Shown: positions 36,455-40,735 of the stretch, in pieces
How the letters are laid out: each line of letters begins with the position of its first letter
Position numbering within the stretch: position 1 is the first letter of the stretch
Assembly (NCBI GenBank): GCA_944323885.1
Contig: CALUUD010000001.1
Location: 62,001-126,000 of the forward strand
Direction of reading: 5' to 3'
Source of the DNA: an uncultured Helicobacteraceae bacterium
Lineage (GTDB): Bacteria; Campylobacterota; Campylobacteria; Campylobacterales; Helicobacteraceae
DNA length: 64,000 nucleotides
Position numbers and translations under genes: made by a program
Notes under the pieces: generated by a model
Told to the model about the DNA's origin: nothing
The model's input: the letters and a program-made list of their open reading frames with translations, nothing else
Databases searched by the model: none

Positions 36455-37216
36455 TCACAATGGAAGTTTATATTGCATTAATATATTTTGAGCATTAAGC
36501 ATTTCTTCATTGGATGGGATTCTAGTAGTTTCTAGCTTATATGGAATTTTTAATTCTTTGTATTTGTAACTACCTAACTGATGAAATGGTATCAACTGAA
36601 CCTTTTGAATACAAGAGTAATCACTTAGCATATTTCCTAGCTTATGCAATTTATCATCATCTAGTGTATATCCAGGAACACATACATATCTTATCCATAC
36701 ACACTTATTAATACTTTGTGCATAATCTAATGTCTTTAATGTATTTTTATTGCTATACTCAGTTAATGCAATACAATCTTCTTCATCAACTTCTTTTATA
36801 TCAAGTAAAATCATACTTGCTTTATCTATACATTTCTTTGAATATTTTAAATCAATAAAACCATTTGTATCAATAGCAGTATGAAATCCAAAAATATCCA
36901 ATGCTTCAAGCAATGAATATAAAAATTCGTGTTGCAATAAAGGCTCACCACCTGATATGGTGACCCCTCCATTTTTATAAAATTTTTTATATGCTAGCAC
37001 ATTTTCTAATATATTTTTTATACTAACTTCAGTGCCACCATTTGGATTCCAAGAATCTGGATTATGGCAATAAAGACATCTCAAATGACAACCCTGTAAA
37101 AACAATACAAATCTAATACCAGGCCCATCAACTGCACCAAATGTCTCTATTGAGTGAATTCTTCCTTTTATTTTTTTATAATTACTTAAAATTAGATCTT
37201 TATCTATTTTTGCCAT
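36455..37216 (-). CDS. pflA: Pyruvate formate-lyase activating enzyme
   Basis: A radical SAM enzyme that makes the glycyl radical on PFL. The 253-residue protein has the signature CHLRCLYCHNPD (CxxxCxxC) near residue 43, preceded by GRIHSIETFGAVDGPGIRF, and the SAM-binding SGGEPLLQ near residue 85. An N-terminal extension of about 15 residues is present. The sequence looks closer to Firmicutes-type activases than to E. coli PflA by eye. It follows pflB by 11 bases. Confidence 0.95.
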   Translation of the reverse strand: MAKIDKDLILSNYKKIKGRIHSIETFGAVDGPGIRFVLFLQGCHLRCLYCHNPDSWNPNGGTEVSIKNILENVLAYKKFYKNGGVTISGGEPLLQHEFLYSLLEALDIFGFHTAIDTNGFIDLKYSKKCIDKASMILLDIKEVDEEDCIALTEYSNKNTLKTLDYAQSINKCVWIRYVCVPGYTLDDDKLHKLGNMLSDYSCIQKVQLIPFHQLGSYKYKELKIPYKLETTRIPSNEEMLNAQNILMQYKLPL

Positions 37217-39465: not shown

Positions 39466-39503
39466 TCAAAGCTCCTTATAACAAAATAAATATAAACGAC
39501 TAT

Positions 39504-39545
39504 ATTATAGAATATACCTTACTAGCTAAATTTGAGAAAAATCAA
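39504..39545 (-). promoter_or_regulatory. FNR-type class II promoter of pflB
   Basis: On the minus strand TTGAT-TTTT-CTCAA (39532-39545), one mismatch from the FNR consensus TTGAT-N4-ATCAA, is followed after exactly 22 bases by a perfect TATAAT (39504-39509). With a start near 39497 the site is centred at about -41.5, the standard position for class II FNR/CRP activation. No good -35 box is present, as expected for an activator-dependent promoter. Confidence 0.65.
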
Positions 39546-39568: not shown

Positions 39569-40735
39569 TCATTTTATTATGTGAGATACGAATTTCGCAT
39601 AATTGTCTAATATATTTCCACCTCTTCTAAATCCAAGCCCGCAACTCTCATATGCAAAAAATACATTTGGTTGATAATATAAATTATTATGAGAGTTTAA
39701 TTCATAAAATTCCTGATATACGCTTTTGTAGTTACTATATTCTCCACCTCTTTTATCTAGTATTCCATTAGAATCTAAGATATCTATATTTGAGCCTTCT
39801 CTGCCAAATGAAACTTTTCTAACCTGCTTTTTAGGTAATTGTTCAAATGAGCTCTCAAGTAATAAAGGATGATTTGGGAATAAATCCCATAAAATTTTTA
39901 ACATTCTCTTACTTTGAAATAAAAGAGTATATGCAGGGTTAAGAAAAATTGTGTTTTTATTTTTCATCATATTGTTTATTATTAATACCAACTCTGGCTC
40001 TTCTATACTAATAATCTCCCAAGGCAACAACTTAAACAAAAATTCATATTTAGCTCCATCAAATGATACACCTTCATCTTCATTAAAATTTATTTCATCA
40101 ATGTAGCAAAATTCACTAACAAAACCTGCTTCTTTTGCACATTCCATCAAAAACTTTGTAGTTCTTTCTTCTTCAATATTACCTCTAATACTAGAAAATA
40201 AAACGCCCCAATTTTCATACATATCAGCAAACTTACTTATGTCATCTCCAAGTGTAATCATTCTTTTAAAATTATCAACAATAGCATTAAATATATTATT
40301 AAATTGCATTTCTTCATTTAATCCATTATGCTTTAATAATGCCCATTGTATAAACGCACTTTCATACAGCAATGTTGGTGTATCAGCATTAAATTCTAGT
40401 AATTTTATTGGTTTTCCATCAAGACCTCCTGCAAAATCAAATCTACCATAAATATGCCAATGAACTTCGTTGTCCCAACTTTGTTTTATAGTGTCAATTA
40501 GTGTTGGTGGAATATCCAAGTCAAAAAATAAATTATTTTTTATAACATATTCTCCAGCTTCAATAAACATATCATAAAGCTCATTGCCAGCATCATAAAA
40601 GGCATTAGCTTCAGATTGTGAAATCTCTACTACCTCATTTGTTATATAATCTGAATTATCCAAATCAGTATGCCAATCTAATCCAAGATCCTCTAGCATA
40701 CTATTTGTTAATGGTTTAAGCTTTATAACATTCAT
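39569..40735 (-). CDS. Glutathionylspermidine synthase-like ATP-grasp protein
   Basis: The 388-residue protein matches the synthase domain of the glutathionylspermidine synthase family (YgiC/YjfC type) without an amidase domain. Visible parts are YGRFDFAGGLDGKPIKLLEFNADTPTLLYES near residue 98, the acidic LLPWEI segment and the C-terminal ESCGLGFRRGGNIL. Its substrate is unknown; YgiC-type members do not necessarily make glutathionylspermidine. The start overlaps the kdsB stop by one base, so it is translationally coupled. Confidence 0.82.
   Translation of the reverse strand: MNVIKLKPLTNSMLEDLGLDWHTDLDNSDYITNEVVEISQSEANAFYDAGNELYDMFIEAGEYVIKNNLFFDLDIPPTLIDTIKQSWDNEVHWHIYGRFDFAGGLDGKPIKLLEFNADTPTLLYESAFIQWALLKHNGLNEEMQFNNIFNAIVDNFKRMITLGDDISKFADMYENWGVLFSSIRGNIEEERTTKFLMECAKEAGFVSEFCYIDEINFNEDEGVSFDGAKYEFLFKLLPWEIISIEEPELVLIINNMMKNKNTIFLNPAYTLLFQSKRMLKILWDLFPNHPLLLESSFEQLPKKQVRKVSFGREGSNIDILDSNGILDKRGGEYSNYKSVYQEFYELNSHNNLYYQPNVFFAYESCGLGFRRGGNILDNYAKFVSHIIK

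Follow-up and report, generated by a model that had tools for sequence, protein, structure and literature searches.

In Escherichia coli, FNR acts on focA-pflB; its sites are of the TTGAT-N4-ATCAA type and typically lie in a class II position in FNR promoters, and the protein is marked by three clustered N-terminal cysteines and one internal cysteine. Nss-type Crp-Fnr regulators have been published for Campylobacter jejuni, Wolinella succinogenes and Nitrosophilus (PMC11539149, PMC4601167). NssR of C. jejuni (targets cgb and ctb) is associated with a truncated haemoglobin of group III, has few cysteines, carries A180/Q181 and binds the FNR-like spaced palindrome TTAACnnnnGTTAA, residues 180 and 181 of Crp-Fnr proteins being correlated with the bases of the site (PMC1274295). 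The DNA binding of NssR is unaffected by NO, and how it senses NO is described as unknown (PMC4601167); pflB is not named among its targets in the available text. NssA, NssB and NssC of W. succinogenes and two Crp/Fnr proteins of Nitrosophilus labii have a DNR-type DNA-binding domain and respond to nitrate, NO or N2O; the targets named for them are respiratory genes (nap, nrf, nor and nos) and do not include pyruvate formate-lyase, and the consensus TTGA-N6-TCAA starts 48-49 bases 5' of the predicted napA, norE and nosB starts in Nitrosophilus (PMC11539149). DNR of Pseudomonas responds to NO and uses sites of the type TTGATnnnnATCAA (PMC1274295); it controls denitrification genes. No description of CRP/FNR control of pfl in Helicobacter was found in the literature searched, at the level of titles and the beginnings of abstracts.

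Here, the pflB locus of an uncultured Helicobacteraceae bacterium (genome G000) was analysed in a window of 64,000 nucleotides, this being the whole stretch of DNA under study, and was compared with relatives that include four members of the same genus (G001 to G004). The operator-like site 5' of pflB has its first base at -48, the same geometry as the Nitrosophilus Nss sites, and recalls the FNR system both in the type of site and in having pflB as the target. The two CRP/FNR-fold regulators of the genome, CRP1 and CRP2, differ from FNR in their cysteines and fall below the NCBIfam Fnr cut-off. CRP1 shares with NssR the link to a group III truncated haemoglobin, the FNR-like palindrome and the small number of cysteines, and differs in having A180/E181, with the sites TTAAC-N4-ATCAA at ctb and TTGAT-N4-CTCAA at pflB. 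The likeness to DNR is a weak sequence match of CRP2 to the DNR structure 3dkw, at low overall similarity; the other PDB comparisons gave general CRP/FNR relatives only. What is novel is the gene under control: few members of the family have a pyruvate formate-lyase, and here it stands under a predicted Nss-type site.

The pflB promoter region

Features of the locus and of the regulator genes are given in Table 1.

Table 1 Coordinates of the pflB locus (window positions) and of the two regulator genes (genome positions)
Feature	Position	Strand	Remarks
pflA, pyruvate formate-lyase-activating radical SAM enzyme	36455..37216	-	TIGR02493; 11 nt 3' of pflB
pflB, pyruvate formate-lyase, 745 aa	37228..39465	-	TIGR01255 equivalog, 1192 bits vs cut-off 994; Gly_radical domain
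AAGGAG ribosome-binding sequence, 5' of pflB ATG (39465)	39472..39477	-	Read directly from sequence
Predicted transcription start	39497	-	Inferred from -10 element
-10 element TATAAT	39504..39509	-	TACAAT in G004, CATAAC in G003
Spacer, 22 nt	39510..39531	-	Length same in G004 and G003, sequence diverged from G000
Predicted Crp-Fnr-type operator TTGAT-TTTT-CTCAA, TTGATTTTTCTCAA	39532..39545	-	9/10 to TTGAT-N4-ATCAA; at -48 to -35
Upstream gene, glutathionylspermidine-synthase-like	39569..40735	- (as pflB)	PF03738, 402 bits
CRP1, 198 aa	G000:C2:544859-545452	-	cNMP_binding and Crp-type HTH; helix AE..SR
CRP2, 236 aa	G000:C2:484228-484935 (L072)	-	cNMP_binding and Crp-type HTH; helix QE..SR

The 14-mer ends 66 nt 5' of the pflB start codon and exactly 22 nt 5' of the TATAAT hexamer. 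The coordinates thus confirm what a sequence-only reading of this DNA had described, namely TTGAT-N4-CTCAA at 22 bases from a perfect TATAAT. Its class II geometry also stands: with the -10 hexamer placed at -12 to -7, i.e., with a start 7 nt past the -10, the centre of the site falls at about -41.5 from the predicted start. The downstream gene is pflB, as proposed, with the activase gene next to it. The same reading had found no -35 box, and in the pflB direction the sole promoter-like pair was a weak TTCTCA/TATATT, with no consensus -35. Promoters of this bacterial group often have no -35 box, so that its absence is weak evidence. The match to the FNR-type site is 10/10 in G004, and a class II Crp-Fnr reading of the pflB site is probable.

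Conservation and chance expectation

The sequence 5' of pflB in G004 is TTGATTTTTATCAA-N22-TACAAT, in which one change relative to G000 makes the palindrome perfect, and in G003 it is TTGATTTTTCTCAA-N22-CATAAC, with the 14-mer identical to that of G000. When anchored on the site, G000 and G004 are identical at 13/14 positions of the site, 7/22 of the spacer, 19/60 of the upstream flank and 14/38 downstream of the -10; the corresponding values for G000 and G003 are 14/14, 8/22, 17/60 and 13/38. Both relatives have therefore kept the operator-like block and the length of the spacer but not its sequence. Being close kin (spacer identity 17/22), G003 and G004 are not independent and amount to little more than one comparison. 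Such a site was absent 5' of pflB in G001, G002 and G011, which limits the conservation to one subgroup of the genus; the expectation that close relatives would keep the site was thus borne out in two of the four other genus members and failed in the rest. Control of pflB through the same site across the whole genus was rejected, G001 and G002 having no site. The pflB of G003 (L011-L013) is degenerate, with several internal stops and a poor -10, yet with the 14-mer intact; since this genome is 56% complete (no CRP gene was found in it), an assembly error may lie behind the degenerate gene.

The loose palindrome TTGATNNNNNTCAA, with at most one mismatch, was seen 64 times in the window against 57 (sd 8) expected, which is no enrichment, and the module TTGATNNNNMTCAA-N22-TANAAT, with at most two mismatches, 5 times against 3.9 expected; the strict module has one zero-mismatch match in the window. 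Under a first-order Markov model of the 160 bp 5' of pflB, 0.054% of draws (probability 0.0005) contained a palindrome of at least 9/10, the N22 spacing and a -10 of at least 5/6. With several hundred promoters, a fraction of one chance match would still be expected, and the probability is small for one chosen gene and not decisive genome-wide; a pflB-type module could occur somewhere in the genome by chance alone. Exact TTGAT-N4-[A/C]TCAA occurs at 26 distinct places in the 1.45-Mb genome, 25 of them within ORFs of 80 aa or more, and the pflB site is the sole extragenic one. It was likewise the only extragenic TTGA-N6-TCAA match of a relaxed N22 search in G000 (1 of 20) and in G004 (1 of 9). 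The counts of this relaxed pattern against control were 20 vs 24 in G000, 15 vs 20 in G001, 17 vs 12 in G002, 7 vs 3 in G003 and 9 vs 7 in G004. A large TTGAT regulon in G000 was rejected on these grounds, given the places inside ORFs and the relaxed pattern without excess. The pflB site itself is placed above chance because it is conserved in genomes of the same genus and is the sole extragenic exact place in the genome.

Across 121 genomes of the family, TTRAY-N4-ATCAA-N22-TANNAT gave 126 matches vs 17 in a reversed control, counts that are not independent since many of the matches are orthologous sites in sister species. The pattern gave 51 matches vs 1 in genus g3 (19 genomes), 7 vs 2 in the genus of the window (5 genomes) and 4 vs 2 in genus g6 (34 genomes); no CRP1 or CRP2 matches were found in the three g6 genomes tested. 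Judged from these patterns, the N22 geometry clearly appears to be in use across the family, in most genera, and it supplies a usable family rule, TTRAY-N4-ATCAA exactly 22 nt from the -10. Beside NssR-type genes, the asymmetry of the site is fixed, with TTAAC as the upstream half and ATCAA as the downstream half.

The two candidate regulators

A PF00325 profile search of the genome gave no match, and two genes, CRP1 and CRP2, have both cNMP_binding and HTH_Crp_2 domains. The cysteines of CRP1 are C81, C85 and C99. CRP2 has C7, C11, C68, C90, C115 and C119, with C7 and C11 forming an N-terminal CX3C, and it is present in G000, G001, G002 and G004. All four of these proteins keep C7, C11, C90, C115 and C119, including that of G001 (at positions 6, 10, 89, 114 and 118), which is 54% identical overall. 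Two cysteines in the first 20 residues were found in no other aligned family or order relative. Among the aligned proteins the cysteine set is confined to this genus, and CRP2 (L072; also L073, L074, L075) is a candidate for a Crp-Fnr protein that responds to redox state or binds metal. The FNR cysteine pattern is absent from both CRP1 and CRP2, and other ligand sets are possible. With the NCBIfam Fnr model, CRP1 scored 26 bits vs a cut-off of 228, and CRP2 was not listed (FnrL 21 vs 300). FNR proper was rejected, as a PF00325 match and the cysteine set of FNR are both lacking. In the E..SR helix, E181 of CRP1 and of CRP2 fits TTGA-type half-sites.

CRP1 is divergent from the gene of a 125-aa protein (ctb), the best solved relative of which is 2ig3, a group III truncated haemoglobin, and the region between the two genes contains TTAACTAATATCAA-N22-TATGAT, facing ctb. 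CRP1 thus has two marks of an Nss/NssR regulator, namely the combination of cNMP_binding with a Crp-type HTH and the linkage to a truncated haemoglobin of the ctb type whose promoter has an FNR-like palindrome. In a tree of 49 proteins, composed solely of unnamed family and order members, CRP1 pairs with its G004 relative (100/96), and the pair falls in a clade (100/99) of 16 family proteins, many of which are encoded beside ctb. For half of these genes (8/16), TTAAC-N4-ATCAA-N22-TANNAT was found without mismatch at a distance of up to 250 bp and directed away from the regulator gene. A site of the TTAAC-N4-ATCAA type is present at ctb in G004 (one mismatch) and in G022, and slightly further upstream in G034; none was found upstream of the CRP2 gene. 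In G004, the syntenic ctb is 84% identical and has neither such a site nor a neighbouring regulator, and CRP1 adjoins a second ctb, 63% identical, at a non-syntenic place. G004 therefore has two ctb genes (L243, L246), only the second being beside an NssR-type gene.

These results bear on the remaining claims of the sequence-only reading. A CRP/FNR regulator with an N-terminal cysteine cluster was recovered in part: two CRP/FNR-fold genes exist, and the FNR cysteine pattern does not. FNR-like, oxygen-responsive control of pflB finds no support in the form stated, since the regulators available are of the Nss kind, with no PF00325 match and no FNR cysteine set. CRP1 is NssR-type and lies divergent from the gene of a truncated haemoglobin of group III, so O2 sensing of the FNR type is no likelier than signalling by nitrosative stress or low O2. 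The remark that oxygen-responsive CRP/FNR control is sparsely documented in relatives of Helicobacter overstates the case for CRP/FNR control in this family, given the N22 geometry seen in most genera and the published Nss-type regulators.

Proposed mechanism and alternatives

On balance, we favor the reading that the pflB 14-mer serves an Nss/NssR (DNR-like) Crp-Fnr activator as a class II operator, with CRP1 the likelier of the two proteins. An Nss-type dimer centred at -41.5 would overlap the place of the -35 region and bring RNA polymerase to the TATAAT promoter from which the pflB-pflA unit would be transcribed, and the signal could come from NO or nitrosative stress, from low O2, or from the two together; an oxygen-labile glycyl-radical enzyme would be a sensible target for any of these. 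Binding, activation, the acting regulator and the signal are the parts of this model that we infer. The pflB site has TTGAT, not TTAAC, as its upstream half and so is not identical to the ctb-type sites; a protein able to accept ATCAA, the complement of TTGAT, as one half of the ctb site should also be able to accept TTGAT as the other half. It is rather unlikely that CRP2 binds the site instead of CRP1, possibly as a redox or O2 sensor replacing FNR, in which case the anaerobic logic of the sequence-only reading would hold. The QE..SR helix of CRP2 fits TTGAT, five of its cysteines are kept in all four genus members despite the divergence of the G001 protein, and the TTGAT half departs from the sites beside CRP1-type genes; against this, CRP2 has no set of three N-terminal cysteines as in FNR, its own gene has no site upstream, and it is also encoded in G001 and G002, whose pflB genes have no site. 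The distribution of CRP1 mildly favors CRP1 in a two-vs-two comparison, as it is present in G000 and G004, the two well-assembled genomes with the site (the G004 protein being 55% identical to that of G000), and absent (G002) or found as fragments only (G001) where the site is missing.

The site is unlikely to be a chance AT-rich palindrome at a plain housekeeping-sigma promoter (TATAAT, no -35), partly kept by descent. Such an origin would agree with loose matches at chance level in the window and the genome, with housekeeping promoters of the group that often have no -35, and with the absence of the site 5' of pflB in G001, G002 and G011, but it does not account for a 14-mer kept at 13-14/14 beside a spacer kept at 7-8/22 with its length exactly preserved, for the low probability of the module in the 160-bp region, or for the strong family-wide over-representation of the N22 geometry. 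We give almost no weight to the inverted repeat being a terminator or RNA structure of the upstream gene: it starts 23 nt past the stop codon of that gene, but no terminator-like structure was found at the repeat and the region folds no better than shuffles (z 0.15), for which reasons this candidate was rejected.

Origin of pflB and wider meaning

PflB was found in 7 of the 121 family genomes, all five of the genus of the window and two of another genus, and its closest named relatives among the matches listed (at least 80 loci) are from Clostridia MAGs, at up to 78% identity. This rarity, together with the nearest listed relatives being Clostridia, suggests that the pflB-pflA pair was acquired horizontally. 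A bolder reading, which we hold to be quite unlikely, is that an Nss-type circuit took over the horizontally acquired pflB in a single Helicobacter-like lineage with CRP2 as the activator, its conserved, lineage-specific cysteines (C7, C11, C90, C115, C119) making it an independently evolved oxygen/redox sensor that would do the job of FNR where there is no FNR. If the operator assignment at pflB is true, the Nss-type Crp-Fnr regulon of Campylobacterota would take in, besides respiratory and NO-detoxifying genes, a fermentative enzyme that is oxygen-labile, and the locus would offer a modest example of how a foreign gene comes under a local circuit for stress or low oxygen. The glutathionylspermidine-synthase-like gene is a stand-alone gene, directly 5' of pflB.
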